The position numbers were made by a program, and so were the translations under genes. Of a stretch of DNA of 64,000 nucleotides, positions 21,619 through 37,013 are shown piece by piece. This stretch comes from Rhodococcus sp. ABRD24 (lineage in GTDB: Bacteria; Actinomycetota; Actinomycetes; Mycobacteriales; Mycobacteriaceae), in assembly GCF_004328705.1 (NCBI RefSeq), contig NZ_CP035319.1:2294001-2358000 (forward strand), given 5' to 3'. Below the pieces are notes generated by a model, which worked only from the letters and a program-made list of their open reading frames with translations, searched no databases and had not been told where the DNA came from. Positions within the stretch are counted from its first letter, which is position 1. The number at the start of each line of letters is the position of its first letter.

Positions 21619-23172
21619 TCACTCCGGCCGCATCGAACCCGTCTCGCTGAACCGCTGGTGGAACGACAGCGCCTCACCCAGCAAGTGCGGTGTGTGGCCC
21701 GCTGACGGGAATGCCTCCGCCCGGTCGACATAGTCGAGCAACATCGCCCGATAGTCGGGGTGCGCGCACTTGTCGATCACGACGCGGGAGCGCTTGCGCG
21801 GCGACAGGCCGCGCAGGTCGGCCAGGCCCTGCTCGGTGACGAGCACCTGGACATCGTGCTCGGTGTGGTCGACGTGCGGGACCATCGGCACGATCGAGGA
21901 GATCGCGCCGCCCTTCGCGGTGGACGGGCTCAGGAACATCGACAGGTAACCGTTACGGGCGAAATCACCCGAGCCGCCGATACCATTCATGATCTTGGTG
22001 CCCATGACGTGCGTGGAATTCACGTTGCCGTAGATGTCGGCCTCGAGCATGCCGTTCATCGCGATGACGCCCAGGCGGCGGACGATCTCCGGGTGGTTGC
22101 TGATCTCCTGTGGGCGCAACACGATGTGCTTGCGGTAGAAGTCGATGTTCGACACCAGTTCGTCGATACCGGCATCCGACAGTGCGAGCGACGTGGCCGA
22201 CGCGTACCGCACGGTGCCGTGCTTGATGAGGTGCAGCATTCCGTCCTGGATCACCTCGGAGAAGCAGGTCAGGCCCTTGTGTGGACCGGCGTCCAAGCCC
22301 TGCAACACGGCATTGGCGACGTTGCCGATGCCGGACTGCAGCGGCAGCAGACCGTCGGCGGGCAGCCGTCCCTTGGACACCTCGTACTCGAAGAAGTCCA
22401 GCACGTGCGCCGCGATGGCCTGGCTCACGGCGTCCGGCGCAGTGAGCGGGCTCGCTGCGTCGCGGGCGTTCGTCTCGACGACAGCAACCACCTTCTGCGG
22501 GTCCACCTTCATGGTGGGCTGGCCGATGCGGTCCTCGACGGACGTCAGCTGGATCGGCTTGCGGAACGGCGGCAGCGCGGTGCCGTAGTAAACGTCGTGG
22601 ATACCGGTCATCGCGTCGGGCACCCACGAGTTGACTTCGAGGATGATCTTGTCGGCGACGTCGAGCCAGGTCTTGTTGTTGCCGATGGAGGTGGACGGGA
22701 TCAGCTCACCGGACTCGGTGATACCGGCGATCTCGACTACCGCGACGTCGACGTTGCCGTAGTAGCCCTCCCACACCTGCTGCGCGACGTGCGAGAGGTG
22801 GATGTCGACGTAGTCCATCCGTCCGTTGTTGATGTTGCGGCGCGCGGTGGGCTCGGACTGGTACGGCATGCGCAGCGAGATGCCGTCGACCTCGGCGAGC
22901 AGCTTCTCGGTGCTCGCCGACACGGACGCCCCGGTGAGCAGGTTGATGGTGAAGTTCGATCCGGCGCCGCGGACCGCATGGATCCGTTCCGCCAGCGCGG
23001 GAATGATCGCCTTGGGCGTGCCGGCGCTGGCGAAACCGCTGATCGCGACCGTGTCGTGGGGGTGGATGAACTCGACGGCCGCCTGCGCGGATGTCACTTT
23101 GCTCCGGAACACCGAACTCTGGATCCGGGTCGGGTTCGACTGGGATCCGGCTTCGTCCACGCACAGGGTCAC
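21619..23172 (-). CDS. Acetyl-CoA hydrolase/transferase (succinyl-CoA:acetate CoA-transferase type)
   Basis: A 517-aa class I CoA-transferase that exchanges CoA between acetate or propionate and succinyl-CoA. Family blocks are FRSKVTSAQAAVEFI, DTVAISGFASAGTPKAI, the catalytic-glutamate region CFSEVIQDGMLHLI, NVNSTHVMGTKIMNGIGGSGDFARNG and VDHTEHDVQVLVTEQGLADLRG. The GTG at 23172 is chosen; an earlier in-frame start would add 36 residues of unrelated character. Convergent with the MFS exporter; no operon partner. Confidence 0.88.
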   Translation of the reverse strand: MTLCVDEAGSQSNPTRIQSSVFRSKVTSAQAAVEFIHPHDTVAISGFASAGTPKAIIPALAERIHAVRGAGSNFTINLLTGASVSASTEKLLAEVDGISLRMPYQSEPTARRNINNGRMDYVDIHLSHVAQQVWEGYYGNVDVAVVEIAGITESGELIPSTSIGNNKTWLDVADKIILEVNSWVPDAMTGIHDVYYGTALPPFRKPIQLTSVEDRIGQPTMKVDPQKVVAVVETNARDAASPLTAPDAVSQAIAAHVLDFFEYEVSKGRLPADGLLPLQSGIGNVANAVLQGLDAGPHKGLTCFSEVIQDGMLHLIKHGTVRYASATSLALSDAGIDELVSNIDFYRKHIVLRPQEISNHPEIVRRLGVIAMNGMLEADIYGNVNSTHVMGTKIMNGIGGSGDFARNGYLSMFLSPSTAKGGAISSIVPMVPHVDHTEHDVQVLVTEQGLADLRGLSPRKRSRVVIDKCAHPDYRAMLLDYVDRAEAFPSAGHTPHLLGEALSFHQRFSETGSMRPE

Positions 23173-23391: not shown

Positions 23392-23994
23392 TCAAACTGC
23401 CCGCCCGACCGTGATTGCGTCGATGAACTGGTCGCAGATGGCGCGCATGCGCGTCGGAGTCATGTGCGCAGACCCGGTCAGAACCTGAATGGCCAGGCCG
23501 TCGAGCAAACCCAGCAACATGTCAGTGGCCACCCCCGGGTCTTCAGCGCGCAGGACGCCCTGGTCGATACCGGCCTCCACGGTGTCGTACACCACAGCGC
23601 GCCACTCGCCGTAGACGTTGTCGTTGAGCTTCTGCAATTCCGCGTCGCCGAGCGCAGATGCCCACAGTTCGACCCAGACTCGCCATGCGGTCACCGTTTC
23701 CGGACCGGCAGGCAGATACGACTCGACGAGGCGATGCAGCCGGACCAACGGGCCGTCACTCTTCTCCATGATCCACGCACGCCGGTCCAGTGAGTTCTCG
23801 AAATTGAACTGGAATGCGGCGTGCAGCAACGCATCCTTCGAGTCGAAGTAGTAGTGCACGGTCCCGTTGCTCACGCCGGCGCGTCGGGATACATCGGAGA
23901 TGCGGACATCCCGGAAGCCGAGCTCGGCGATGGCCTCGCAAGTCGCCTGCAGAATCTGTTCTCGGCGTTCGGCTTCAACGCTGGGTCGTGGCAT
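23392..23994 (-). CDS. TetR-family regulator (last gene of the catabolic cluster)
   Basis: A 200-aa regulator. The helix-turn-helix (about residues 11-55) reads ILQATCEAIAELGFRDVRISDVSRRAGVSNGTVHYYFDSKDALL. The C-terminal ligand domain contains YLPAGPETVTAWRVWVELWASA, a BetI-like pattern. It lies 31 bp after the DMT transporter on the same strand, so it probably controls the 24-37 kb cluster (inference). Confidence 0.88.
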   Translation of the reverse strand: MPRPSVEAERREQILQATCEAIAELGFRDVRISDVSRRAGVSNGTVHYYFDSKDALLHAAFQFNFENSLDRRAWIMEKSDGPLVRLHRLVESYLPAGPETVTAWRVWVELWASALGDAELQKLNDNVYGEWRAVVYDTVEAGIDQGVLRAEDPGVATDMLLGLLDGLAIQVLTGSAHMTPTRMRAICDQFIDAITVGRAV

Positions 23995-24025
23995 TGAGTG
24001 GACAACTCCTCGAGTGTGACGTGTT

Positions 24026-24988
24026 CTAGTTCGAAACCGTAACTGAACGTTCGCTTGTGTCTGTGGAACCTCGCGCTCTCCGCCATCTCGTTGCCCACGG
24101 CAATAGCGAGCAAGCCAGGAGAATCGTGGTTACCCCTGCCCATTGGAGGCCGCCCAGCCTTTCCGAGAGCACGATAGCCGCGACGACCACCCCGACGATC
24201 GGTTCGAGCAATCCGAGCAGGCTCATCGAGACCGAACCCAGGTGCCGGACCGCATAGAAGGCGCCGCCGACTCCGATCGGGATGAGAAACACTGCTTGCA
24301 GAATGACGGTGCGCCATCCCCCAGACGACAGTGCGAAGTCCTGATGTGTCGCGAGAGCGACAATGCCGACGGCGAGGGTCGACCCCGCCGTGACCAGGCC
24401 CGTGGCGGCAATCGCACCAACCTGTCGAACCCACGGCTCGCCGAGAACCAGGTACACCGCGTACCCAGCGGCGCTCAACACCGCCATACCGGCGCCGACC
24501 GCCGTTATCGAAGACGAGCCTGAGCCGGAAACCAGACCGATCCCGCCCATCATCAGGGCACACACCATCAGCACGGGGAGCCCGGCTCGCTGTCCCCTGG
24601 TCAGCATGACCAGCAGCAACACGAACACCGGATAGACGTGCACGAGCACAAGGGCGATCTGCGCTCCCGTTGACTGCACTGCGGCGAAGTACGCGAGGAT
24701 CTGTAGCCCGAAGATCGGTCCGCACAGGAACGTCAGACCCAGCGACGCCCTGAGGGGCAGCCGCCGGAGACGCCCGGTGGCTGCGGCAAAGGCGAGTATG
24801 AGCGCGCCACCGAGCAGCCCGCGAAGAGTCACCAACACGGAGGGCGAGACACCCTCCGTGTAGGCAAGGGCTGCCACGGTCGGTGTCAGACCGTACGCGA
24901 TCGCGGACGCTATCCCGCCGACCCAGGCACCGGCAACGCGCCGATCCTCGACGTGCACCGCCGATCCGGTGCCCGGGCGCCGAGTCAC
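24026..24988 (-). CDS. DMT-family (EamA) transporter
   Basis: A 320-aa membrane protein with ten hydrophobic segments in two EamA repeats (about residues 20-155 and 165-300). The second repeat includes SVSMSLLGLLEPIVGVVVAAIVLSERL, the classic EamA block. The GTG at 24988 overlaps the acyl-CoA dehydrogenase stop (GTGA); the longer upstream reading is mostly the dehydrogenase gene in another frame. It may export a metabolite of the pathway. Confidence 0.85.
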   Translation of the reverse strand: MTRRPGTGSAVHVEDRRVAGAWVGGIASAIAYGLTPTVAALAYTEGVSPSVLVTLRGLLGGALILAFAAATGRLRRLPLRASLGLTFLCGPIFGLQILAYFAAVQSTGAQIALVLVHVYPVFVLLLVMLTRGQRAGLPVLMVCALMMGGIGLVSGSGSSSITAVGAGMAVLSAAGYAVYLVLGEPWVRQVGAIAATGLVTAGSTLAVGIVALATHQDFALSSGGWRTVILQAVFLIPIGVGGAFYAVRHLGSVSMSLLGLLEPIVGVVVAAIVLSERLGGLQWAGVTTILLACSLLPWATRWRRARGSTDTSERSVTVSN

Positions 24989-26145
24989 CCCAGATTCCGG
25001 GAGATGACGAGCCGCATGATGTCGGAGGTACCTTCCTCGATCTCCTCGAGTTTGACGTCCCGCATCCACTGCTCGACGGGGTACTCGCGGGAGTAGCCCC
25101 AGCCACCAAGGGTCTGCACGGCCGCCCACGTCACGAACATGGCGGTCTCGGACGCTGTCAGCTTCGCCATGGCTGCGAGTCCTGTGGCATCCCCTCCGGC
25201 ATCGATGACCCGCGCAGTGTTGAGGACCATCAGCCGAGCTGTCTCGATCCGGGTGGCCATGTCGGCCAGACGGAAAGCGACGGCCTGGTGCTCGATGATC
25301 GGCTTGCCGAACTGCTTTCGGGTTCGCGCGTAGTCCAGCGCGTATTCATAGGCCGCACGGGAGGCGCCGACCGCCGCCGCCCCGAGCACCGTGCGGGAGA
25401 TGTCGAACGTCTTCATCAGCCCGTAGAAGCCCTGGCCCTCGTCGCCAAGTCGGTTCTCGTCCGGGACGAAGACATCGTCGAAGAACAGCTCGCGGCAGAC
25501 GATCGCGCGCTGCCCCATCTTCTTCATCGGTTCGCCCCACGAGAATCCGGGAGCATCCTTCTTCAGCAAGAAGGCAGAAACACCCTTGGAGCGCTCGTTG
25601 CGATCGGTCTTGGCAAACACGACGTACTGCTCGGCGGCGCCGGCGTTGGAGATCCACGCCTTCTGTCCATTGATCCTGTAGCCGCCATCGACCTTGGTGG
25701 CGGTGGTGATGATCGAGGCAGCATCGGAACCGGAGCCGGGCTCGGTGGTGGCGAGGGCAGTCATCACCGGGTTGTCGCCGGTGAGCGGACGCAGCCACTT
25801 CTCCTTCTGCTCGAGTGTTCCCAATGCCATCAGAGGATCCGAGAAGAAGCCGTTGGAACACACCAGGTTTCCGATGCCCGGATCGCCCCAGCACAGTTCT
25901 TCCTGGACCAGACACTGGGTGAAGACGTCGGAGAACCCGCCGCCGCCGAACTCTTCGTCGATCATGAAGTCGGTGATGCCGACCTTGGCGGCCTTCTGAA
26001 AAATGTCGACCGGCGTGACGACATCGGCCTCGTCGACCTCGCGTCCGCGCGGACGGATCTCCTTCTCCGCGAAGTCGCGGCACAGCTTGACGATCTCCTG
26101 CTGTTCGGTGGTGAGGGGCCAAGGGTCGAACTGCGTGGTGGCCAT
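24985..26145 (-). CDS. Acyl-CoA dehydrogenase
   Basis: A 386-aa FAD flavoenzyme introducing an alpha-beta double bond into an acyl-CoA. It has MTALATTEPGSGSDAAS (flavin/substrate site), GYRINGQKAWISNA, RTRKQFGKPIIEHQAVAFRLADM, QTLGGWGYSREYPVEQWMRDVK and the catalytic glutamate E371 in EEIEEGTSDI. It starts 70 bp after the hydroxyacid dehydrogenase stop, with a candidate operator in between, so it may have its own promoter. Coupled to the DMT transporter. Confidence 0.93.
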   Translation of the reverse strand: MATTQFDPWPLTTEQQEIVKLCRDFAEKEIRPRGREVDEADVVTPVDIFQKAAKVGITDFMIDEEFGGGGFSDVFTQCLVQEELCWGDPGIGNLVCSNGFFSDPLMALGTLEQKEKWLRPLTGDNPVMTALATTEPGSGSDAASIITTATKVDGGYRINGQKAWISNAGAAEQYVVFAKTDRNERSKGVSAFLLKKDAPGFSWGEPMKKMGQRAIVCRELFFDDVFVPDENRLGDEGQGFYGLMKTFDISRTVLGAAAVGASRAAYEYALDYARTRKQFGKPIIEHQAVAFRLADMATRIETARLMVLNTARVIDAGGDATGLAAMAKLTASETAMFVTWAAVQTLGGWGYSREYPVEQWMRDVKLEEIEEGTSDIMRLVISRNLG

Positions 26146-26170
26146 GATGAGCCTTTCCTGGTTGGCTAGT

Positions 26171-26184
26171 CAGTTAATTTACTG
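26171..26184. promoter_or_regulatory. Candidate regulator site before the acyl-CoA dehydrogenase gene
   Basis: CAGTTAATTTACTG, arms CAGT/ACTG around an AT-rich centre, in the only sizeable gap (70 bp) within the lower half of the cluster. A related TAACTG-containing stretch occurs at 37026-37047, before the binding-protein gene. Possibly the operator of the cluster's TetR protein. Confidence 0.4.
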
Positions 26185-26215
26185 GCGAGGTGAATGGGGA
26201 AGTGAGGGAGATCGG

Positions 26216-27169
26216 TCAGGACGCTGCAGTCACCTCCCGGGTCAGCAGCCACTCAACGGCGTTCTCCGCCTGTATCCGCACGTAGTCACCGGCGCTCTCC
26301 GGCGACAGGTAAGCCGCGTGCGGGGTGACCAAGATCCGCGGATGCCCACAGATGCGTTGATCGGTGGGCGGCTCCACTGGCAGCACATCGAGGGCGGCCC
26401 CGCCGAGCTGCCCCCGATCGAGGCTCGCGAGCAGAGCATCGTGATCGACCACACCACCCCGAGCCACGTTGACCAGGAACGATCCCGGCCGCATCCGCGC
26501 CAGCGCGGCGGCGTCGATCAGCCGCTCCGTCTGCTTCGTGAGTGGGACGTGCACAGACACCACATCACTCGATTCCAGCAGCGCATCGAACTCGAGGCGC
26601 CGCACCGCGGTGGGCCACTGGCCGTCCGCCAGCACGGGATCGTATCCGACCACCTCGCCGAAGATTCCGTCACCGAGCGCGGCGAGTCGCTGCCCGATCC
26701 GGCCCATGCCGACCACACCCAGAGTGGATGCTGATGGCCGCAGCAGACGCTCGGCCGTGCCGTCCCAGCCGCCCGCGCGCACGTCCCGATCGAGGAACGG
26801 CAGACCGCGGATCAGCGAGAGTGCCATCGCCAGAGCATGGACCGCGACCTCCTCGGTGGCGGCTCCCGGCACGGTGGCAACGCTGATGCCGCGCTCGGCC
26901 GCGGCGGCGGTGTCGACCATGTCCACCCCGACGGACTGGGTGGCGATCAGGCGCAGCTTCGGCAACCCCTCGATGATCGCGCGGGTGATGTGCAGGTAGC
27001 CCACCAGCAGCACCTCGGCGTCTTGCGCCTCCCGCAGCACCGACGCCTCGTCGGCACCGTGCAGAACCCGAGTCTCGAATCCCGCGCGTTCCAACAGCTC
27101 CAGGCCGGGCGCGATATCGGTATCGACCACATCGGTGTAGATGGCCAGCGGCCGGCGGGGCGCGCTCAC
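26216..27169 (-). CDS. D-isomer 2-hydroxyacid dehydrogenase
   Basis: A 317-aa NAD(P)-dependent enzyme interconverting 2-hydroxy and 2-oxo acids. It has the Rossmann motif GVVGMGRIG (151-159) and the catalytic triad R237 (NVARGG), E266 (LPVEPP) and H284 (TPHAAY). The GTG at 27169 overlaps the aldehyde dehydrogenase stop. Glyoxylate/hydroxypyruvate reductase, phosphoglycerate dehydrogenase and D-lactate dehydrogenase share this fold, so the exact substrate is open. In context it may supply the 2-oxo acid for the neighbouring decarboxylase. Confidence 0.88.
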   Translation of the reverse strand: MSAPRRPLAIYTDVVDTDIAPGLELLERAGFETRVLHGADEASVLREAQDAEVLLVGYLHITRAIIEGLPKLRLIATQSVGVDMVDTAAAAERGISVATVPGAATEEVAVHALAMALSLIRGLPFLDRDVRAGGWDGTAERLLRPSASTLGVVGMGRIGQRLAALGDGIFGEVVGYDPVLADGQWPTAVRRLEFDALLESSDVVSVHVPLTKQTERLIDAAALARMRPGSFLVNVARGGVVDHDALLASLDRGQLGGAALDVLPVEPPTDQRICGHPRILVTPHAAYLSPESAGDYVRIQAENAVEWLLTREVTAAS

Positions 27170-28575
27170 AGCTGCACCGCCGTCAGCTCGGTGAACTCCT
27201 CGACGCCCACACTCCCGAGTTCGCGGCCCAGCCCCGATGCCTTCCAGCCGCCGAACGGCGCAACGGGATTGAACGCGGCACCGTTGACGTCGACCTGGCC
27301 GGTGTCCATTCGGCCGGCTACTGCGACGGCACGCTCGCGATCGGCCGACCACACCGCGCCGGCAAGACCGTATGCGCTGTCGTTGGCCGCGGCAATCGCG
27401 TCGTCGTCGCCATCGTGCGGAAGAACCACGAGGACGGGGCCGAAGATCTCCTCGTGGGCAATCGGATCCGCACGGTCGACGTCTGCGAGCACCGTCGGTC
27501 GCAGGTAGTGACCGCGCTCGGCAATCTGTTCGGTTCCGCCGGCCGCGATCCGGGCGCCACGGCGGACCGCACTCTCCACGGCATTAGCGATCGAACTGCG
27601 CTGCCGTGCCGAAATCACCGGCCCGAGTTGGGTATTCCGATCGACCGGATCGCCGACAATCATCGCGTCCGCGCGGGCAGCCGCGATCGCTACCGCTTCG
27701 GTGTAGCTCTCCCGAGGGACCAGCAGTCGGGTCCACGCGCTGCACGTCTGGCCGCTGTTGAACATCGCGGAATCCACGGTGCCGACAACCGAGGCGGCCA
27801 GGTCTGCGCCGTCGAGCACCACACTCGCCGACTTCCCGCCCAGCTCGAGGCAGGCGCGCTTGAGCTGTTCGCCGGCAACACGGCCAACCTGACGTCCCAC
27901 CGCGGTCGAACCGGTGAACGAGACCACATCGATTCCCGGGTGTGCCGCGAGGGCCGCGCCGACGACTGACCCCGGTCCGGGAACCAGATTGACGACGCCG
28001 GGCGGAAGGGCCGTCCCGAGTACCGCATCACAGAACAGGTATGTCGTCAGTGGGGTCAACTCGGCAGGTTTGATCACGGTGGTGCACCCGGCAGCCAGAG
28101 CCGCACCAACTTTCGCAGCAAGCTGGTAAAGCGGATAGTTCCACGGAGTGATCGCACCGACCACTCCTGCGGGACGCCGCAGCACCGTCGAGTTCCCGAT
28201 CACCCACTCGGCCGGCTGCTCGCGAGCAATGCGGGCGAAGGCTGCGATCAGCTCGATCGCCAGGTCGACGTGCGCATCTTCAGCCACCGTCACCGGCGCA
28301 CCGACCTCGGCAACGATGGCATCGACCAACTGGCTCCGGTCAGCGGACAGACGGACGCGCAGCGAGTCCAGGACGTCGGCACGCTCTGCGCCGGTGGTAC
28401 GGCCCCACTCGACACCGGCGGTGCGCGCAGCGCGCACCGCCCGGTCGACCTGCTCGACCCCTGCGGCGGCCGACTGGCCGATGACCTCTTCCGTCGCCGG
28501 GTTGTACACCGAGGTAACGTCGGCACATTCGTGCCACTTCCCGTCGATGAGGACCGTGTTACGCGTCCAGCTCAT
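27166..28575 (-). CDS. Aldehyde dehydrogenase (NAD(P)+)
   Basis: A 469-aa enzyme oxidising an aldehyde to a carboxylic acid. TPWNYP (N145), FTGSTAVGRQVG, ELGGKSA (general base E244) and GQTCSAWTRL (nucleophile C278) are intact. The start ATG at 28575 overlaps the preceding TAA by one base (TAATG), so an earlier in-frame reading is dropped. Placed directly after a 2-oxoacid decarboxylase-like gene, it is well suited to oxidise the aldehyde that enzyme releases. Confidence 0.93.
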   Translation of the reverse strand: MSWTRNTVLIDGKWHECADVTSVYNPATEEVIGQSAAAGVEQVDRAVRAARTAGVEWGRTTGAERADVLDSLRVRLSADRSQLVDAIVAEVGAPVTVAEDAHVDLAIELIAAFARIAREQPAEWVIGNSTVLRRPAGVVGAITPWNYPLYQLAAKVGAALAAGCTTVIKPAELTPLTTYLFCDAVLGTALPPGVVNLVPGPGSVVGAALAAHPGIDVVSFTGSTAVGRQVGRVAGEQLKRACLELGGKSASVVLDGADLAASVVGTVDSAMFNSGQTCSAWTRLLVPRESYTEAVAIAAARADAMIVGDPVDRNTQLGPVISARQRSSIANAVESAVRRGARIAAGGTEQIAERGHYLRPTVLADVDRADPIAHEEIFGPVLVVLPHDGDDDAIAAANDSAYGLAGAVWSADRERAVAVAGRMDTGQVDVNGAAFNPVAPFGGWKASGLGRELGSVGVEEFTELTAVQL

Positions 28576-30167
28576 TACTCGTCCTCGCTCTCGCGCACAT
28601 GAATCAAGGTCGGGCGGTCGGCGTCCAGCGCCCACCGGACCGCGTCACCGACCTCGTCGGCAGAGCTGAGGGCGACCCCATGACATCCGAGAGACCTTGC
28701 CAGAGCGGGGAAATCGAGTGAACCGAGCTCCACCGCGTGCACCGCCTCCCCGCGATCGACCATCTCGTTGCGGATCTCGCCGTAGCCGCCGTTGTCGACG
28801 ATGATCACCGGGATCGCCAGCCCAGCCTCCGCCGCGGCCGCGAGCTCGGCCACCGTGAACATCACACCGCCGTCTCCGAGCATGGCGACCACCTGCCGAT
28901 CCGGTGCCGCGACCTTTGCACCTATCGCGGCCGGCAGACCGTATCCCAATGTCCCCAGGCCGGTCGGATAGAGGAACGAACGCGGTTGATGCAGTGGGAG
29001 ATTCGACAAGGCCCCGTAATAGCAGGCCATGGCGCTGTCTGCGGACAGGATCGCTCCCTCATCGAGCGACTTGTCCAGGGAAGCGCAGAGACTGACATAG
29101 CGCGCACCTTCATGCTCGGCATCGACCCGAAGCCGCTTGCGCCAATCAGCGGCCCGTTCCACGCCGGATCCGCCGGACGACCCGGCGCTATTCTGCAGCG
29201 CTGCGAGCGTGGCACCGGAATCACCGACCAGAGCAATCGTTGCCACGGCATTGGTCGAGACCGAAGTGGGATCGATATCGATTCGGATCAACCTTCCTTC
29301 CGCCCGCAACGGGCCGATCCACAGGTCCGAAGGCGCCAACTCCGTACCGACAGCGATGACGAGGTCGGCGTCCGCGACCAGGTCCGCCACCGTCGGATGG
29401 TGCAGGCCTGCACCGAGGGAAAGCGGATGCTCCTCCGACAGGACGCCCTTGCCGTTGGCGGTCGTGATAACCGGGGCACCAATTGTCTCGGCAAAATCGC
29501 GCAACTGCCCTGCCGCGGAACAGGATCCTCCGCCGGCGATGAGCAGTGGCCTGCTGGCCGCTGCGATCAACTCGGCGGCGGCCCGCACCTGGTCGGGCGA
29601 CGGCACCATGACCGGGACCTGCACCGGCGGGACCGGCTGCACATCGGCGCACGCATCGAGCAGATCCAGCGGCACCTCCAGATAGGCAGGCCGCGGGCGG
29701 CCGGTGGTCATTGCCGCAAAGCACTGAGCCACCGCGAGTGGGATCTCTTCGACGCTGGTGACACGCTGGCTGTGACCGACGATCGAATCCATTGCACCGA
29801 ACTGATTCTTGACCTCGTGGAGGTACCCGTTGCCGTTGCTCGGATGCCCCAGCGGAAGCCCCGGCGCAATGAACAACACTGGGACCGAGTCCGAATATGC
29901 TTGCGCCGCAGCCGCGGCCGCATTCAGAATCGCTGGTCCGGTGGTGGTGATGCACACGCCAGGTCTACCGCTGACCCGGGCGTAGCCGTCTGCCGCATAT
30001 CCGGCACCCTGCTCGTGCCGCGGCGAGATATGCGTGATTCCAGATTCGGCGAGTGCCGCGTAGATCGGGAGATTGTGGGTGCCGGGAATGCCGAAGACGA
30101 CTTCGACGCCGTGCGCCGACAATGCGGTGACGAGCGCCCGTCCGCCGGTCTGCTTTTCGACCGTCAT
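28575..30167 (-). CDS. ThDP-dependent enzyme (benzoylformate decarboxylase/acetolactate synthase-like)
   Basis: A 530-aa three-domain thiamine-diphosphate enzyme. The PYR domain has FGIPGTHNLPIYAAL and the cofactor-activating glutamate E52 (RHEQGAGYAADGYAR). A central Rossmann-type domain spans about 190-320. The PP domain has GDG at 431-433 and N459 binding Mg-diphosphate. No FAD-site motif was clear, and there is no small ALS subunit beside it. Decarboxylation of a 2-oxo acid to an aldehyde is preferred given the aldehyde dehydrogenase neighbour. Carboligase or acyl-CoA-type chemistry remains possible. Confidence 0.82.
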   Translation of the reverse strand: MTVEKQTGGRALVTALSAHGVEVVFGIPGTHNLPIYAALAESGITHISPRHEQGAGYAADGYARVSGRPGVCITTTGPAILNAAAAAAQAYSDSVPVLFIAPGLPLGHPSNGNGYLHEVKNQFGAMDSIVGHSQRVTSVEEIPLAVAQCFAAMTTGRPRPAYLEVPLDLLDACADVQPVPPVQVPVMVPSPDQVRAAAELIAAASRPLLIAGGGSCSAAGQLRDFAETIGAPVITTANGKGVLSEEHPLSLGAGLHHPTVADLVADADLVIAVGTELAPSDLWIGPLRAEGRLIRIDIDPTSVSTNAVATIALVGDSGATLAALQNSAGSSGGSGVERAADWRKRLRVDAEHEGARYVSLCASLDKSLDEGAILSADSAMACYYGALSNLPLHQPRSFLYPTGLGTLGYGLPAAIGAKVAAPDRQVVAMLGDGGVMFTVAELAAAAEAGLAIPVIIVDNGGYGEIRNEMVDRGEAVHAVELGSLDFPALARSLGCHGVALSSADEVGDAVRWALDADRPTLIHVRESEDE

Positions 30168-30169
30168 CC

Positions 30170-30976
30170 TCAGGCCCCCTTGGTGGGATCGGTGTAGATC
30201 GCCTTGCCCAGCCACTGACCACCGTCGACGACCAGGACATCACCGGTGACGTAGGAGGCCCGGTCGGAGAGCAAGTAGGCCGCCGACTCGGATACCTCTT
30301 CCGGATTGGTGAACCGGCCGGCGGGAACGCTCGAGAGCACCTGGGCCCGGGCCTCCGGGGTGGGCCACAGTGCCGCACCAGCACCTTCGGTCTCCGTGGG
30401 GCCGGGGGCGATGCAGTTCAATCGAACACCACGAGCCGCCCATTCGACAGCCAGCGTGCGGGTCATCGCGACCACACCAGCTTTGGCCGCTGCACTGTGG
30501 ACGGTGCCGGGGTGACCATGCCAGGCGTACGTGGCGATCACGTTGAGAATCGATCCCCGGCCCGCCGGCAGCATGTGTCGTGAGGCGGCTCGGGTGCAGT
30601 AGAAGGTGCCGTTGAGGACGATGTCGATGACGGCCTTCCAGCCGCCGGGAGACAGGTTCTCACCAGGTACGACGAAGTTCCCGGCCGCGTTGTTGACCAG
30701 AGCGTCGAGACGGCCGTGTCGCTCGACCACGGAATCGATGGCCGCATCGACGGCGGCGTGGTCGCGAACATCGCACGGGAGAGCCTGCGCCTTGCCGCCC
30801 GCCCGCTCCGCAAGGGCCACCGTCTCGTTGAGCGCGTCCTCGCGGCGACCGAGCACCGCTACCGTGCCGCCCGCGGCCGCCCATCGCACCGCAATGGCGC
30901 GACCGATGCCGGAGCCGCCTCCGGTGACCACGGCCACCCGGTCGGCGAACTCGGCCCTGATGTCTGGTGCAGTCAT
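30170..30976 (-). CDS. SDR oxidoreductase, 2,4-dienoyl-CoA reductase-like
   Basis: A 268-aa short-chain dehydrogenase. The NAD(P) motif GGGSGIG occupies 19-25 and NNAAGNF 95-101. The active-site position reads VHSAAAKAGV: K165 is present but tyrosine is replaced by S161. This, with NNAAGNFVVPGENLSPGGWKAVIDI and APGPTETEG, is the pattern of peroxisomal-type 2,4-dienoyl-CoA reductases. A role in reducing an unsaturated acyl-CoA fits the acyl-CoA dehydrogenase and CoA ligase nearby. Two bases separate it from the ThDP gene. Confidence 0.82.
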   Translation of the reverse strand: MTAPDIRAEFADRVAVVTGGGSGIGRAIAVRWAAAGGTVAVLGRREDALNETVALAERAGGKAQALPCDVRDHAAVDAAIDSVVERHGRLDALVNNAAGNFVVPGENLSPGGWKAVIDIVLNGTFYCTRAASRHMLPAGRGSILNVIATYAWHGHPGTVHSAAAKAGVVAMTRTLAVEWAARGVRLNCIAPGPTETEGAGAALWPTPEARAQVLSSVPAGRFTNPEEVSESAAYLLSDRASYVTGDVLVVDGGQWLGKAIYTDPTKGA

Positions 30977-30996
30977 GAATTGTCCTTATCTGATGG

Positions 30997-33042
30997 TCAG
31001 CGAGGGTCGTCGATGATCAGTGCGTCGACGGCCAGGACACCGTCCGGGCCGACACGGAGGGGATTGAGCTCGAGCTCACGAATGTGGGGATGAGCGGCGG
31101 CGAGCTCGGATACCGCCGCCACCGCCGATGCCAGGGCATCGATATCGGTGGGCGGCCGTCCCCGCCAACCCTGCAGTAGGGGTGCGCATTCGAGCTGACG
31201 CAGCATCGCATGCGCGGTGTCGATGGAAACCGGGGCCATCTCGACGGTGACGTCGCGATACACCTCGGCCTCGGTACCGCCGGCGCCCACGACCACGACG
31301 GGTCCCAGATCCGGGTCCCGGCGCGCACCGAGAAGGATCTCCACTGTGTGCGGGCGGGTGTCGAGTTCCTCGATGACGTAGTCACCCTCACCGAGCGCGG
31401 CGTACATGGTCTCGAAGGCGGCAGCGAGGGCTCCGAGATCCGAAAGGCCGACCGCGACCCCGCCCACCTCGCTCTTGTGCTCGAGCCAGCTGGCCTTGAG
31501 GACATAGGGAGCCGTGAGCTGAGCCTCGACGACCGCCAGATCTTCCCGACTTCGCACCGTGACTCCGCGAGGAAAGCGGATTCCGAACTCCGTCAGGATC
31601 TCCTGTGCCCCCAGATAGCCCGCTGCGATGGGCTCGGACCACTCGGGCAGGCAGGGCAGAACGCGTCCGGCTCGCGAGAGCCTGTCGGCATCGACCAGGG
31701 CCCGGACTGCCGTCTCGATGTTGCCGTACACAGGAATCCGGTGCTTCCACATCGCCTCGGTCGCGAGGTTGCCGTCGACCATGGTGTGCACGAGGAGCGG
31801 CGTACCGGTGCGGATGACCGCATCCCCCATCGCATCGACGATCTCGAGCTCCCGCCCGACCAGAGACGGGGTGTCCGCGCCGTACGTGCCGAAGTACCCG
31901 GTGAGCACCACCGAGTCGACCTCATCCGACGCCAGCAACACCGACACGACATCGGAATAGGAGGCCAGATCCTTCTCGCCGGCACCCGCGAGATCGACAG
32001 GGTTACTACACGAGGCGCCGTCCGGAAGCAGCTGAGCCAGCTCTGTGGCCAACTCGGCAGAGAATGCCGGAACACGCAGCTTTGCAGCGGCAGCCACGTC
32101 GGCCGCGATGCCGGTCTGCCCACCGCTGTCCCCGACAATCGCCACTCGGTTCCCCCGCGGCAGCGACGTCGCAAGCAACAGCCGCGCCACGTCGACCAGC
32201 TCACTCGGCGTATTGACCCGCACCGCACCGGCCGCACGAACTGCCGCGTCCACGACGTCGAGATTGGAGGTGAGGGAGCCGGTGTGGGATCGGGCGAGTC
32301 GAGAACTGGCCTCACTCCCCCCGACCGTGAGCAAGATCGTGTACTTGCCCGCATTACGTAACGTGACCAGGGCTTCGATCAGCTCCCTTCCCGCGGAGAA
32401 GCTTTCGAGGTACAGGGCAACCACCCGGGTGCCCTCGTCCTCGACGAGGTCGGCAAGCAGCTCGGCGGCGCGAACGTCCGCCTGGTTACCGATGGATACG
32501 AATCGGGACACCCCGAGGCCCGCGCGGGCGGCGAGGATAGCGATCTCGGAGCCGAGTTGACCGCTCTGCGAAATCACCGCGATCGGTCCGGGGGTGAACC
32601 GACCCCACGCCAGCTGCAAGTCGGTCGAACTGTCGTAGATGCCGAGGCTGTTCATGCCCACCAGACGTGCACCCGCGTCGGCGATGCGCTGCGCGATCGC
32701 GGACTCGTCAGGGACGCCGGCAGTGATGCCGAGGAAGCCGCGCACGCCGAGTGCAAGCCCTTCATCGACGACGGCACCGATGTGGGCGGCGGGCACGCAC
32801 AAGGCAACCAGCTCGGGAGTAGTGGGCAGTTCGCTGAGCGAGCCGTGACTCGGCTCGCCGAGAATGTCTGCCTTCGAACGATTGATCAGGAACACGTCCC
32901 GCCGGGAGCGGCCGGTGAGCGCGCCCTTTGCCAACCAGTAACCCCACTTGGCCGGGTCCGAGGTGGAGCCGACGACCGCCACCGAGGCCGGGTCTCGGAA
33001 GACACGCAGATCACGGTCGGTCGGCGACATCGTTTGCGCCAT
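30997..33042 (-). CDS. Acyl-CoA synthetase, ADP/NDP-forming (fused alpha-beta)
   Basis: A 681-aa acetate-CoA-ligase-family enzyme activating a carboxylic acid with ATP and CoA via phosphohistidine. The order is CoA-binding Rossmann domain (about 15-140), succinyl-CoA-ligase-like domains with the SHTGSL histidine H253, then a C-terminal ATP-grasp domain (about 465-680) containing YVLKASWLEHKSEVGGVAVGL and ELELNPLRV. The ATG at 33042 has AGGAG 8 bases upstream. The product of the aldehyde dehydrogenase is its expected substrate (inference). Confidence 0.88.
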   Translation of the reverse strand: MAQTMSPTDRDLRVFRDPASVAVVGSTSDPAKWGYWLAKGALTGRSRRDVFLINRSKADILGEPSHGSLSELPTTPELVALCVPAAHIGAVVDEGLALGVRGFLGITAGVPDESAIAQRIADAGARLVGMNSLGIYDSSTDLQLAWGRFTPGPIAVISQSGQLGSEIAILAARAGLGVSRFVSIGNQADVRAAELLADLVEDEGTRVVALYLESFSAGRELIEALVTLRNAGKYTILLTVGGSEASSRLARSHTGSLTSNLDVVDAAVRAAGAVRVNTPSELVDVARLLLATSLPRGNRVAIVGDSGGQTGIAADVAAAAKLRVPAFSAELATELAQLLPDGASCSNPVDLAGAGEKDLASYSDVVSVLLASDEVDSVVLTGYFGTYGADTPSLVGRELEIVDAMGDAVIRTGTPLLVHTMVDGNLATEAMWKHRIPVYGNIETAVRALVDADRLSRAGRVLPCLPEWSEPIAAGYLGAQEILTEFGIRFPRGVTVRSREDLAVVEAQLTAPYVLKASWLEHKSEVGGVAVGLSDLGALAAAFETMYAALGEGDYVIEELDTRPHTVEILLGARRDPDLGPVVVVGAGGTEAEVYRDVTVEMAPVSIDTAHAMLRQLECAPLLQGWRGRPPTDIDALASAVAAVSELAAAHPHIRELELNPLRVGPDGVLAVDALIIDDPR

Positions 33043-33083
33043 AAGTTGACTCCTGAATGAATGAGTTTCGGACGGCATTCGCG

Positions 33084-34202
33084 TCAGGCGGAGACGGCCG
33101 TCGAACTGTCGATAGGATCGGAGAGGATGGTGACGTCGCCGACATTCCAGTACACGCTCACCCGTGCTCCTGGCGTGACGGCATCGTGGCTCAGCGGAAC
33201 CGGGGTACGGGCGATGACGACGCGATCCGCCTTGGTACGGACCAGGACCTGGCGGCTGCTGCCGAAGTACACACTGTCCTCGACCACTCCGGTCACGGAG
33301 TCGCACCCGACAGGAATGGGCTCGGTGTGCGCACACACCTGAAGACGCTCCGGTCGCAGTAGAACGCTCACATCGCCGCGGTGACCGGATCCAGGAAGCC
33401 GGAAACACTGCCCGGTGTCCTTGTCCGCGAAATCCGCACCCACGGCCCGTCCGGCGAAGATGTTCGACGCCCCGATGAACTCGGCCGCGTATCGGGAGTT
33501 GGGGGATTTGTACAGCTCCTCTGGCGAGCCCACCTGAACGATGGAACCGTTGCGCAGCAGAGCGATCCGATCCGACATCGCCAGCGCTTCGTCCTGGTCG
33601 TGCGTGACGAAGATGAATGTGATCCCCAGTTCCTGGTGCAGCCTGCGGACCTCGAGTTGCAACTGCTCGCGGAGCAGTTTGTCCAGAGCGCCGAGCGGTT
33701 CGTCCATCAGCAGCACCGGCGGACGGAACACGATGGCGCGGGCGAGAGCGACGCGCTGCTGCTGGCCACCCGAGAGCTCGGACGGCTTACGGGCACCGAG
33801 ATGCCCGAGCTGGACGACGTCGAGGGCCTCGGCCACGCCGGCGGCGATCCGTTCCTTCGACCAACCGCGTCGCTTCAGCGGGAACGCGACGTTCTCAGCG
33901 ATCGTCATGTGCGGGAACAGCGAGTAATTCTGGAACACCATCCCGAATCCGCGCTTGTGCGGCGGCACCTTGTTCATGGTCGCGCCGTCCACCTCGACGG
34001 TGCCTCCGGTCGGCTTGACGAATCCGGCAATGATGTTGAGCAGGGTGGACTTTCCCGATCCGCTCGCACCGAGCAGCGTGAGGAACTCGCCACCCCGGAT
34101 GTCGAGACTCAGATCGTCGAGAATGACGGTGTCGCCGTAGCTCTTACTGATGTTCGACAGCCGAATCGGCGCCCCGCTGGTCGTATTGGTCTTCCGGGTC
34201 AT
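33084..34202 (-). CDS. ABC importer ATPase, PotA/spermidine-putrescine type
   Basis: A 372-aa ATP-binding subunit. Walker A GASGSGKST (45-53), Q-loop FQNYSLFPHMT, signature LSGGQ (143-147), Walker B LLMDEP (164-169) and the HDQDEAL switch histidine region. It has a C-terminal TOBE domain (about 285-365). The ATG at 34202 overlaps the permease stop (ATGA). Binding protein, two permeases and ATPase form a complete importer for polyamine-like or organic-acid ligands. Confidence 0.93.
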   Translation of the reverse strand: MTRKTNTTSGAPIRLSNISKSYGDTVILDDLSLDIRGGEFLTLLGASGSGKSTLLNIIAGFVKPTGGTVEVDGATMNKVPPHKRGFGMVFQNYSLFPHMTIAENVAFPLKRRGWSKERIAAGVAEALDVVQLGHLGARKPSELSGGQQQRVALARAIVFRPPVLLMDEPLGALDKLLREQLQLEVRRLHQELGITFIFVTHDQDEALAMSDRIALLRNGSIVQVGSPEELYKSPNSRYAAEFIGASNIFAGRAVGADFADKDTGQCFRLPGSGHRGDVSVLLRPERLQVCAHTEPIPVGCDSVTGVVEDSVYFGSSRQVLVRTKADRVVIARTPVPLSHDAVTPGARVSVYWNVGDVTILSDPIDSSTAVSA

Positions 34203-35035
34203 GCTTGAACTCCAATCACATTGGGCACGTTTCGACTTCGGTACGCGCGGAGTGCCTTCTGGAGCAGCTTGCCCGCGCCCAGGGCGAGGAAGGCGGCAAG
34301 GATCACGAAGAGTGAGAGCGCGGAGATCGCGGCAACGGTCGGATCGACTTGTACCTTGACACCGGACCAGATCCGCACGGGCAAGGTGGTCATCCGCGGT
34401 CCGGTCAGGAAGATCGCGGTGACGACCTCGTCCCAGCTGGTGACGAAGGCGAACACCGCGCCTGCAAACACGCTGGGAGCGATGTTGGGCAGCGTAATTC
34501 GGAAGAAGGTGGACACCGGACCCGAACCGAGGGACTGAGCTGCCAGTTCGATGTTGCGATCGAAGCTGACCAGACCGGACGCCACGTTGATCGTCACATA
34601 CGGTACTGCCAACGCGGTGTGCACCAGCACCAGCCCGAGCGTTGTCTCGGTGAGCCCGATCCGCAGGAACACGATGTACACAGAGAGGCCGACGATCACG
34701 TACGGCACGATTACCGGTGCCAGGATCAGAGCAGTGATGCCGCCGCGGAACGGGAATCGCCCGCGGACCAGACCCAGCGCAGCCAGGACTCCCAGGACGA
34801 CCGCGCAAACAGTCGAGACAAGAGCCACCCGCATGCTCGTCGCGGCAGAGTGCAGCCAGGTGGGGTCGTCGATCAGCCTCTGATACCAGCGTCCGGACAG
34901 GCCTTCGGGCGGAAAGTTCAGGAACGAACTGTCCGAGAACGACATCGGGATGACGATCAGGATCGGGAGCAGCAGGTAGCAGACGGTGAGAGCGGCGATC
35001 ACCCCAAGGAGCACCCGGGTGAGTGTTCGTGTCAT
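34199..35035 (-). CDS. ABC importer permease, PotC-like
   Basis: A 278-aa permease with six membrane segments. The cytoplasmic EAA loop NIELAAQSLGSGPVSTFFRITLPNIAPSVFAGAVFAF docks onto the ATPase. Overlaps both neighbours by 4 bp. Confidence 0.92.
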   Translation of the reverse strand: MTRTLTRVLLGVIAALTVCYLLLPILIVIPMSFSDSSFLNFPPEGLSGRWYQRLIDDPTWLHSAATSMRVALVSTVCAVVLGVLAALGLVRGRFPFRGGITALILAPVIVPYVIVGLSVYIVFLRIGLTETTLGLVLVHTALAVPYVTINVASGLVSFDRNIELAAQSLGSGPVSTFFRITLPNIAPSVFAGAVFAFVTSWDEVVTAIFLTGPRMTTLPVRIWSGVKVQVDPTVAAISALSLFVILAAFLALGAGKLLQKALRAYRSRNVPNVIGVQA

Positions 35036-35952
35036 TTCGACCCCATCAGGTATTTCTTCATATCGACGAACCGGCTCGCGATGGCGAGCAGGATCAGCGT
35101 GCTGCCCAGCAGCACCACAGCCAGCGCTGCCGCGAAGCCGAACTTGAGCACGGTCGACACCTGCTCGACAATCAGCTGGCCGATCATGGTGTTCTGCGGA
35201 CCGCCCAGCAGGGCTGGCGTGATGTAGTAGCCGAGTGCCTGGATGAAGACCAGGATCAATCCGGCGAAGACACCCGGAATCGTCAACGGTACGAACACCT
35301 TCCAGAAGGCCACCGACGGTCGTGCGCCCAGGCTCTCGGCAGCGAGCAACAACCGCCGGTCGATCGTGCGCATCGTCGCGTACAGCGGCAGTACAGCGAA
35401 CGGCAGCGTGATCTGAACCATGCCGAACATCACGCCGGACAGGTGTCTCAGCATCGGGATCGGTTCATCGATCACGCCGACCGAATCGAGCACCGTGTTG
35501 ATGACGCCCGTATCGCGCAGCAGCAGCACCAGGGCGAAGCTGCGCACCAATAGGCTGGTCCAGAACGGGATGAGTACTGCGATCATCATCACGCCGCGCC
35601 AGAAGGGCGTCGCCAGTGTCATCAGGTAGGCGAAGGGGAAGGCGATGACGACAGTCACCAGCGTCACGGTGATCGCGGTGACGAACGTGTTGCGTAGCAC
35701 CTTCAGGTACAGCGGGTTGGTCAGGATATCCGAGTAGTTCGCTAGTCCCACTGCGGGATCCGTGAAACTCTTCGACAGCAAAAGCAGCAGCGGGATCACG
35801 AAAACCAGGGTGAGGAATCCGAGCAGCGGCAACAGGAGCAGAGCCCAGTTGTCGAACTCGAGCCGGGCCCAACGCCGCACGCGCGGAGCCGGGTTCGGCG
35901 GTCCGGTCCGATCGGCTTGTTCGTCTGCCGCAGCCTCCAATGTCTGCGTCAC
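35032..35952 (-). CDS. ABC importer permease, PotB-like
   Basis: A 306-aa permease with six membrane segments after a 35-residue cytoplasmic lead. The EAA loop reads LLLAAESLGARPSVAFWKVFVPLTIPGVFAGLILVF. Polyamine-type features include ITPALLGGPQNTMIGQLI near the C-terminus. ATG at 35952 overlaps the binding-protein stop by 4 bp. Confidence 0.92.
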   Translation of the reverse strand: MTQTLEAAADEQADRTGPPNPAPRVRRWARLEFDNWALLLLPLLGFLTLVFVIPLLLLLSKSFTDPAVGLANYSDILTNPLYLKVLRNTFVTAITVTLVTVVIAFPFAYLMTLATPFWRGVMMIAVLIPFWTSLLVRSFALVLLLRDTGVINTVLDSVGVIDEPIPMLRHLSGVMFGMVQITLPFAVLPLYATMRTIDRRLLLAAESLGARPSVAFWKVFVPLTIPGVFAGLILVFIQALGYYITPALLGGPQNTMIGQLIVEQVSTVLKFGFAAALAVVLLGSTLILLAIASRFVDMKKYLMGSK

Positions 35953-37013
35953 GACAACGCCCAGGCGTTCAGTCGTTCGGTCGCCGTGTTGTAGTTCTCC
36001 GCCCAGTACTTGTAGTTCATCGTCGTGGCGGCCTGCGCCTGATTGGCAGGGAAGGTGGCGAGTTCCTTGGCAACTTCGGGATCGACGAGTTCCATGGCTT
36101 TCGGGTTGATGGGATCGTAAGCACTGGCTTCGGCATCGGCGGCTTGCCCCTGGACGTCACCGACAAATGCGGTCATCCACTTCATCGCGAGGTCGGTGTT
36201 TGGGTAACCGGCGGGGATCACCACCTGGTCATAGGAAACGAGGTTCTGGCCCCACTCGTTCGCGACGGGCTGGCCTTCCTTGGCCGCGTGATAGATCCGG
36301 CCGTTCCATGCCTGTACAAGGGGTGCCTCGCCGCTCGCGACCAGCTGAGCTTGCTCGTCACCCGTCTCGTAGAAGACGATGTCCTGCTTGATGGTATCCA
36401 GCTTGCGGAACGCCCGGTCCAGATCGAGGGGGTAGAGCTGGTCCGCGGGCACCCCATCGGCGAGCAGAGCAGCCTCGAACATCCCTCCGGTGGCGTACTT
36501 CCAGAATCCACGCTTCCCGGGGAAGAGTTGCGTATCGAAGAACTCTGCCCACGTTTTGGGGTGATTGTCGGCGAAGGTATCGGTGTTGTAGGCAATCGTG
36601 AAGGCGTAGGAGAGGTTCGGAATCGCGCAGTCGTTGATGTAGCCGGGATTGATACCGGCGTCGGTCGCGGCCTGCTTGACCTCGGGGGTGAGCTTAGTCA
36701 GTACTCCGCTAGCACAGGCAGTTTCGGAGAAGTTCGGCTCGACCTCGGTCACGCCCCAGGTGACGTTCTTGGAATCGACCTGGGCCTTGATCTTGGCGTA
36801 GTCGGTGGGGGAATCCTCACTGACCGTGAGCCCGTTGGCCTCCGCCCACGGCTTGATGTAGGTGTCGACATGTGCACGCTGCGCCGATCCGCCCCACATC
36901 GTGACTTCGAGGGTCTTGCTCGGATCTCCAGCCGACGACCCGCATGCCGCAACTGCCGCGGCCACGAGAGTCAGCCCCGTCGCCAATCGAGTCCGCCTGT
37001 GCGCTGTACTCAT
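35949..37013 (-). CDS. ABC importer substrate-binding lipoprotein, PotD-like
   Basis: A 354-aa extracytoplasmic binding protein. A Tat/Sec-type lead MSTAHRRTRLATGL precedes a lipobox (VAAC, lipidated C24). The mature type-II fold has TMWGGSAQRAHVDTYIKPWAEANG, LSYAFTIAYNTD, PKTWAEFFD, LVQAWNGRIY and DQVVIPAGYPNTD. Ligand residues do not settle polyamine versus organic acid. First gene of the cluster; the promoter should be in 37014-37060, where an AT-rich stretch (37043-37055) and TAACTG-type repeats occur. Confidence 0.9.
   Translation of the reverse strand: MSTAHRRTRLATGLTLVAAAVAACGSSAGDPSKTLEVTMWGGSAQRAHVDTYIKPWAEANGLTVSEDSPTDYAKIKAQVDSKNVTWGVTEVEPNFSETACASGVLTKLTPEVKQAATDAGINPGYINDCAIPNLSYAFTIAYNTDTFADNHPKTWAEFFDTQLFPGKRGFWKYATGGMFEAALLADGVPADQLYPLDLDRAFRKLDTIKQDIVFYETGDEQAQLVASGEAPLVQAWNGRIYHAAKEGQPVANEWGQNLVSYDQVVIPAGYPNTDLAMKWMTAFVGDVQGQAADAEASAYDPINPKAMELVDPEVAKELATFPANQAQAATTMNYKYWAENYNTATERLNAWALS

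Follow-up and report, generated by a model that had tools for sequence, protein, structure and literature searches.

A predicted 2-hydroxyacid catabolic operon of Rhodococcus sp. ABRD24 and the exchange of its entry enzyme among relatives

An operon of 12 minus-strand genes was identified in Rhodococcus sp. ABRD24 within a 64,000-nucleotide stretch of DNA, here called the window (G000:C1:2294001-2358000, G000 being the organism's own genome, a single contig of 5.10 Mb). The operon probably serves the catabolism of an imported D-2-hydroxyacid with a short chain and a cationic tail, the individual reactions and the substrate being predicted from sequence. The operon genes were found to recur jointly across other genera and families, beyond chance, and the operon is a real unit. 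In relatives, an amino-acid dehydrogenase (AADH, glutamate-dehydrogenase fold, cluster k2) was found where the window has a D-2-hydroxyacid dehydrogenase (HADH), and it appears rather likely that the operon represents a hydroxyacid-fed version of a more widespread actinobacterial route whose first step is elsewhere carried out by the AADH.

Predicted route and the proteins behind it

The genes are transcribed in the order solute-binding protein (SBP), PotB, PotC, PotA, ADP-forming acyl-CoA synthetase, short-chain dehydrogenase/reductase (SDR), thiamine diphosphate (ThDP)-dependent enzyme, aldehyde dehydrogenase (ALDH), HADH, acyl-CoA dehydrogenase (ACAD), EamA, and TetR. The PotABCD-type importer, with an SBP of the gamma-aminobutyrate (GABA)/opine type, would bring in a short-chain D-2-hydroxyacid whose distal end bears a positive group. 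HADH would oxidize the 2-hydroxyacid to the 2-oxoacid, the AruI-like ThDP enzyme would decarboxylate it to the aldehyde, and ALDH would yield an acid one carbon shorter, which the synthetase would convert to the acyl-CoA and the ACAD in turn to the enoyl-CoA, with the TetR protein controlling the operon. One such route with its own importer had been proposed in an earlier note on this DNA and is supported by the comparative genomics.

The best-scoring model for the ThDP enzyme was NF005712, 5-guanidino-2-oxopentanoate (2-ketoarginine) decarboxylase, whose cut-off of 500 was reached with 500.8 and 501.1 bits, and the enzyme is predicted to be an AruI-like 2-oxoacid decarboxylase. Biosynthetic acetolactate synthase, the identity that the earlier note had named as fatal to its reading, was rejected (TIGR00118, 343.6 bits against a cut-off of 538), and another ThDP protein is encoded in the same genome (G000:C1:848125-849756). 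The SBP belongs to the GABA/opine type, and the closest binding proteins bind GABA. Six of the eight GABA-site residues of iGABASnFR2 are retained, as are the Arg and Asp of the GABA-type site. It differs from the GABA-binding proteins Atu4243 and Pf622 (iGABASnFR) by T13→A and F100→L, and has an acidic residue, E216, at a position occupied by Ser in Atu4243 and by Gly in Pf622. Together, the GABA/opine-type SBP and NF005712 as the best ThDP model make a cationic aliphatic tail likelier than an aryl group, and thus speak against the mandelate-like character originally suggested for the route.

For the ALDH, no NCBIfam cut-off was reached among the best 25 of 42 family matches. The synthetase contains an HTG motif (residue 255 of the fragment) and a phospho-His motif, and its best solved relatives were the 4-hydroxybutyrate-CoA ligase 8wzu and the 3-hydroxypropionate-CoA ligase 9y43, followed by DddX (7cm9), for which a cation-π pair, Trp391/Phe435, and a base, Glu432, are given in PMC8163506. 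The ACAD was closest among NCBIfam models to acryloyl-CoA reductase (335.5 of 640 bits). The Glu of its EEGTSDI motif is presumably the catalytic one, and the R, E, and H segments of HADH, which were retained in eight rows, are taken to have catalytic roles. The SDR aligned to human DECR1 (1w6u) with TYA...SAAAK over IYA...SASAK. Its Tyr, Ser, and Lys, assumed to be the DECR-type catalytic residues, were retained in 31 rows of at least 60% identity, and YAWHGHPGTVHSAAAK was near-invariant among the same 31 SDRs; the window protein scored under the cut-off of the 2,4-dienoyl-CoA reductase model NF005811 (Table 1).

Co-occurrence of the genes and exchange of the entry enzyme

Among 298 genomes of the order, a ThDP match of at least 54% identity was found in 10 (G000, G297, G176, G198, G223, G261, G106, G004, G033, and G215), and synthetase matches at this level occurred in the same 10; the 54% line was chosen after both match tables were known. 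Below it, 10 more genomes had a ThDP match (E ≤ 1e-100) and 4 a synthetase match (E ≤ 1e-120), with G213 in both groups. Within the 10 genomes, the ThDP match of G215 and the synthetase match of G033 were partial, and the two genes lay ∼123 kb apart in G004 and on separate contigs in G033. The ThDP homolog of G215 (G215:C54:295110-296132) has one in-frame TGA, possibly reflecting a broken gene or a sequencing error.

Of the ThDP loci, 95 were fetched and 89 were non-redundant, the window included; one source set consisted of the best 80 of 369 relatives and is biased to close kin. The synthetase was encoded in 58 of the 89 loci, the ACAD in 57, and both in 57. The set is thus kept in one neighborhood in many relatives, contrary to the outcome that the earlier note had named as refuting its reading. 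The SDR was present in 30 loci, the ALDH in 20, and the SBP in 17. A polar amino-acid ABC transporter was found in 10 loci, never together with the SBP, and 6 loci contained a dimethylargininase gene, each with this polar amino-acid importer (the one member scanned was above its cut-off). The nearest models for the binding protein of the latter importer were GlnH (94 bits) and Lys/Arg/Orn (88 bits), both far under their cut-offs. Two plasmid loci encode 41% ThDP homologs. In L129 (Arthrobacter) the gene set resembles that of the operon although the ThDP enzyme is distant, with two amidohydrolases, succinate semialdehyde dehydrogenase, ACAD, SDR, and a "C-terminal binding protein" of the 2-hydroxyacid dehydrogenase type, and in L124 (Shinella) the ThDP gene adjoins a demethylation-type set of NADH:flavin oxidoreductase, EtfAB, purU, folD, an aminotransferase, and a GlcD-type flavin adenine dinucleotide (FAD) protein.

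The AADH was encoded in 59 of the 89 ThDP loci and the HADH in 8, the window among these, and the two occurred together in L061 only. Three changes of the HADH label were required on a ThDP tree of 63 rows, even with well-supported branches alone and with gains and losses not being distinguished, and the window enzyme fell within a 98/94-supported group with seven AADH loci. Elsewhere in the genus, the ThDP enzyme was present in 3 of 13 genomes, and the corresponding loci (L164 to L166) all had the AADH, with no HADH or importer in 20 kb. In the closest of them, L164, identity to the window proteins was 75% for the ThDP enzyme, 93% for the SDR, 90% for the ACAD, 74% for the synthetase, and 76% for the ALDH. 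An AADH ortholog was absent from the window's own genome, the best match being 34% identical and glutamate-dehydrogenase-like. Exchange of AADH and HADH ahead of one decarboxylase is expected if the common intermediate is a 2-oxoacid. The SBP was present in 7 of the 8 HADH loci, and its binding site changes with the entry enzyme: at position 44, Asp occurred in 10/10 SBP rows from AADH loci (9 non-redundant), against Ala or Gly in 7/7 HADH rows.

In the AADH of the relatives, the glutamate-dehydrogenase Lys that we take to bind the γ-carboxylate of glutamate is replaced by Ser, in no less than 95% of 62 rows and in 15/15 rows (S48). An "aromatic pocket" considered for this enzyme as an argument for a lysine-type route was dropped, since a Trp in the carboxylate site depended on a by-eye alignment alone; MAFFT left the glutamate-dehydrogenase stretch GVIVSYFEWVQ unpaired and then aligned WWWW to QAYWW. 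For HADH, 298 homologs were obtained at E ≤ 1e-60 (7,997 candidates scored), and 14 of 119 listed homologs were taken as co-located with one of 119 listed ThDP homologs, because the lengths of the longest contigs were identical. A separate 2-hydroxyacid dehydrogenase (k88) lies immediately upstream of 47 to 49% ThDP homologs in L114 to L116. In L159, an amine oxidase and an NCS1 permease precede TetR-ACAD-synthetase-SDR-ALDH, and the ThDP enzyme and AADH are absent from the locus. Amine oxidases of this type were found in eight ThDP loci, NCS1 permeases in eight, and both in seven; the best solved relatives of one such oxidase were a monoamine oxidase (8p84) and putrescine oxidases.

Genes for N-methyl-amino-acid-oxidase-type enzymes adjoin the AADH gene in five Streptomyces loci (L049, L073, L078, L122, and L123), and a mycothiol formaldehyde dehydrogenase-type gene follows the ACAD in L049, L073, and L078. 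In L049, the N-methyl-tryptophan-oxidase-type enzyme and the mycothiol-dependent formaldehyde dehydrogenase were both above cut-off, pointing to N-methyl substrates in these Streptomyces loci. Another locus, L163, is likely an N-methyl-compound cluster. There, paralogs of the synthetase, ACAD, and SDR with a hydratase-like gene adjoin a Rieske protein, for which glycine betaine monooxygenase was the nearest model (137 of 670 bits), together with a mycothiol formaldehyde dehydrogenase-like gene, PotABCD, an amine oxidase-like gene, and ALDH.

Operon layout, regulator, and neighborhood

The 12 genes run contiguously across window positions 23392 to 37013, as read from the list of open reading frames (ORFs) and family scans (Table 1), and a codon-usage gene call returned the identical genes, with shorter starts for some. 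The earlier note had described 13 genes with mostly 1- to 4-bp overlaps; the contiguous run and the named families at their coordinates held, with a count of 12, and overlaps of 1 to 4 bp were confirmed at 5 of the 11 junctions (27166-27169, 28575, 34199-34202, 35032-35035, and 35949-35952), the other 6 having gaps of ∼2 to 70 bp. The frames were open, and the catalytic segments sought by eye were present. NCBIfam and Pfam scans covered 10 of the 12 genes, that is, all except the two permeases.

Table 1. Genes of the operon, with window coordinates and the basis of each assignment
Feature	Position	Strand	Basis
SBP, PotD superfamily, GABA/opine subgroup	35949..37013	-	Lipobox-like start by eye
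ABC permease, PotB-type	35032..35952	-	ORF; recurs alongside SBP
ABC permease, PotC-type	34199..35035	-	ORF; recurs alongside SBP
ABC ATPase, PotA-type	33084..34202	-	TIGR01187 potA 360.1 bits, cut-off 355.6 (scanned inside longer ORF 33084-34808)
ADP-forming acyl-CoA synthetase	30997..33042 (start codon tentative; frame open as far as 33408)	-	PF13380, PF13607, PF13549
SDR with 2,4-dienoyl-CoA-reductase-type active site	30170..30976	-	NF005811 297.9 bits, under cut-off 318
ThDP-dependent 2-oxoacid decarboxylase, AruI-like (predicted)	28575..30167	-	NF005712 500.8 bits, cut-off 500
ALDH	27166..28575	-	PF00171 490 bits
HADH, CtBP-like	26216..27169	-	PF02826, PF00389
ACAD, EEGTSDI motif	24985..26145	-	PF02771/PF02770/PF00441; aligned to solved ACADs
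EamA/DMT-family transporter	24026..24958	-	PF00892; cluster k35, as in L022, L037, L042
TetR regulator with a BetI-type C-terminal domain, distinct from BetI	23392..23994	-	PF13977, PF00440; TIGR03384 86.4 bits, cut-off 201.3

The TetR proteins of L044 and L046 are 85% identical to that of the window, though both loci lack the importer and HADH, which suggests that TetR may sense a compound common to the downstream part of the route. Operator palindromes and sigma-70 promoters were searched for and none was found, and the guanidine riboswitch, a marker of guanidine release, had no match at the gathering threshold in the four sequences scanned (the window, L022, L037, and L042). A group II intron match was noted in L037 (15194-15267, minus strand; 49.4 bits). 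Downstream of the TetR gene, a succinyl-CoA:acetate CoA-transferase (NF053853, 720 bits, above cut-off) is encoded at window positions 21619-23172 on the minus strand, probably outside the operon.

The substrate, its rivals, and known systems

Among substrates with a cationic tail, the likeliest single candidate is of the arginine type, with argininic acid, 2-ketoarginine, and 4-guanidinobutyrate with its CoA ester as the compounds of the route, for which the chances are judged about even. Three loci have agmatinase-family genes above the TIGR01230 cut-off: L030 and L031, immediately upstream of 46 to 48% ThDP homologs, and L125 (a Pararhizobium plasmid), near a 39% homolog. The ThDP genes of L030 and L125 are each followed immediately by a gene for a GlcD-type FAD hydroxyacid dehydrogenase. 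The NF005712 score of the ThDP enzyme, the dimethylargininase genes of six non-redundant loci, and the aru region of Pseudomonas aeruginosa described below also speak for the arginine type. A guanidino hydrolase, a hydroxyacid dehydrogenase, and an AruI-like enzyme are what breakdown of argininic acid would require, and the trios at L030 8030-11992 (an actinobacterium) and L125 4119-11978 are candidate sets for argininic acid or a guanidino-hydroxyacid. Since the ureohydrolase and the CoA gene set never occurred together in these three loci, they may be alternative continuations after the same decarboxylation. The operon itself has no ureohydrolase gene; the genome's one PF00491 match lies outside the window at 2075657 and encodes a formimidoylglutamase, with 287.9 bits against the TIGR01227 cut-off of 229. 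No aminotransferase was found among the 10 of 12 operon proteins scanned.

Up to the acid, the chemistry would match the arginine transaminase pathway except for the first enzyme. In the Pseudomonas aeruginosa aru system, arginine:pyruvate transaminase is encoded next to AruI (presumably PA4976, aruH, and PA4977, aruI). The aru region shares with the window a ThDP enzyme of the 2-ketoarginine decarboxylase family, but entry is by an aminotransferase rather than by HADH, or AADH in the relatives, and control is by a two-component system rather than TetR. The CoA ester of the arginine-type reading is the 4-guanidinobutyryl-CoA of Streptomyces polyketide supply, and there it is a biosynthetic starter unit and not part of catabolism. 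The available part of PMC4412052 names acyl-CoA synthetase PA4978, acyl-CoA dehydrogenase PA4979, and enoyl-CoA hydratase PA4980 with PA4982/PA4983, and no SDR corresponding to that of the window; PA4982/PA4983 are aruSR and adjoin the GABA-binding PA4985 (PMC11113362). The claim in the earlier note that no operon with this exact set is described may hold for the precise combination of genes, but these two accounts make the aru region a close precedent. In the Sinorhizobium meliloti IlvB1/AspC arginine transamination network, an AruI-homologous decarboxylase likewise feeds aldehyde dehydrogenases, but with aminotransferases and ureohydrolases and, in the part of the paper available, no acyl-CoA branch (PMC7268258). 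Among the matches listed from open-licence full texts, titles and abstract openings gave no description of this actinobacterial cluster, no bacterial catabolism of argininic acid, and no bacterial gene cluster for trimethyllysine.

Several observations weigh against the cationic hydroxyacid reading or its arginine-type form. No member of the operon has a known enzyme activity. The NF005712 cut-off, that of a subfamily model, was exceeded by ∼1 bit, and the S. meliloti AruI homolog IlvB1 favors 5-amino-2-oxopentanoate seven-fold (PMC7268258). The SBP switch falls on approximately one branch of the SBP tree and so counts as a single event. Agmatinase-family genes were detected in 3 of 114 loci (tblastn), none with the synthetase/ACAD set, so that the guanidino evidence comes from distant homologs only. 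The SDR, without a clear role on a 4-guanidinobutyryl chain, and the ALDH are missing in many ThDP loci, and 31 of the 89 have neither synthetase nor ACAD, a few of these being on short contigs. Finally, in L042 the genes from the importer to TetR follow the order of the window, but HADH is missing; elsewhere in that genome no AADH match was found at E ≤ 1e-30, and the only HADH matches were 34 and 37% identical.

The dienoyl-CoA-reductase active site of the SDR makes a lysine-type route the main rival, although an unlikely one. The ACAD would convert 5-X-pentanoyl-CoA (X = trimethylamine, amine, or guanidine) to 5-X-pent-2-enoyl-CoA, vinylogous loss of HX would give 2,4-pentadienoyl-CoA, and the DECR-type SDR would reduce this to 3-pentenoyl-CoA, a substrate for β-oxidation. 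A δ-leaving group would explain an SDR whose active site aligns with that of human DECR1 and in which YAWHGHPGTVHSAAAK is near-invariant; the elimination has a chemical precedent in 5-aminovalerate fermenters, and no ureohydrolase match was found in the 58 synthetase loci. The genes after the ACAD in L045 resemble EtfA, thiolase, and enoyl-CoA hydratase by eye (the EtfB of L061 was scanned), and permease k25 is nearest to an S-methylmethionine permease, with a second-nearest model that we take to be LysP-like. The N-methyl substrates suggested by the Streptomyces loci also speak for a C5 lysine-type chain. Against this, the SDR ortholog is missing (E ≤ 1e-80) in 6 of the 10 genomes with the ThDP enzyme and synthetase (G198, G106, G223, G215, G004, and G033), the dimethylargininase loci and the agmatinase genes by distant homologs are left unexplained, and we know of no metabolite that would be the matching hydroxyacid. 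Generalized to an undescribed catabolic strategy for ω-onium amino and hydroxy acids, this chemistry would combine oxidative one-carbon shortening with elimination of the tail nitrogen from the 2-enoyl-CoA, neither hydrolysed nor transaminated, return of 2,4-pentadienoyl-CoA to β-oxidation by a dedicated dienoyl-CoA reductase, and interchangeable entry modules (amino-acid dehydrogenase, hydroxyacid dehydrogenase with importer, or amine oxidase); this proposal is quite unlikely to hold.

It is distinctly improbable that the importer brings in an ω-amino acid (GABA or 5-aminovalerate) entering at the synthetase, with HADH, the ThDP enzyme, and ALDH serving a second substrate. The closest binding proteins do bind GABA, and PA4985, beside aruSR, binds GABA at 0.58 µM and 5-aminovalerate at 1.6 µM (PMC11113362), but the SBP pocket is unlike those of GABA binders and changes along with the entry enzyme, and the SBP accompanies HADH in all but one of its loci. 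A sulfonium substrate, S-methylmethionine or 4-dimethylsulfonio-2-hydroxybutyrate, passing through dimethylsulfoniopropionate (DMSP) to DMSP-CoA by a DddX-like synthetase, is very improbable. DddX ranks third among the solved relatives of the synthetase, the best NCBIfam match of the ACAD is acryloyl-CoA reductase, and k25 best matches S-methylmethionine permease (484 to 488 bits; cut-off 716), but hydroxyacid-CoA ligases outscore DddX, the SDR and ACAD would have no role after acryloyl-CoA, and k25 occurs in 6 of 89 loci and is absent from the window cluster. The aryl (mandelate-like) route would follow the identical order of reactions and is the least credible of all, given the GABA-type SBP site with its Arg and Asp and the absence of benzoylformate decarboxylase from the best 25 of 55 NCBIfam and best 60 of 160 PDB matches of the ThDP enzyme; moreover, arylacetyl-CoA is not open to α,β-dehydrogenation by an ACAD.

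If catabolism of a cationic D-2-hydroxyacid is the true function, it would assign a substrate class to a conserved actinobacterial set whose members are at present annotated one by one (as "C-terminal binding protein," "5-guanidino-2-oxopentanoate decarboxylase," and "acetate--CoA ligase family"), and could account for the acyl-CoA genes near the arginine transaminase genes of Pseudomonas. The loci would then also constitute a natural experiment, with joint changes in entry enzyme and importer binding site against a constant set of later enzymes.

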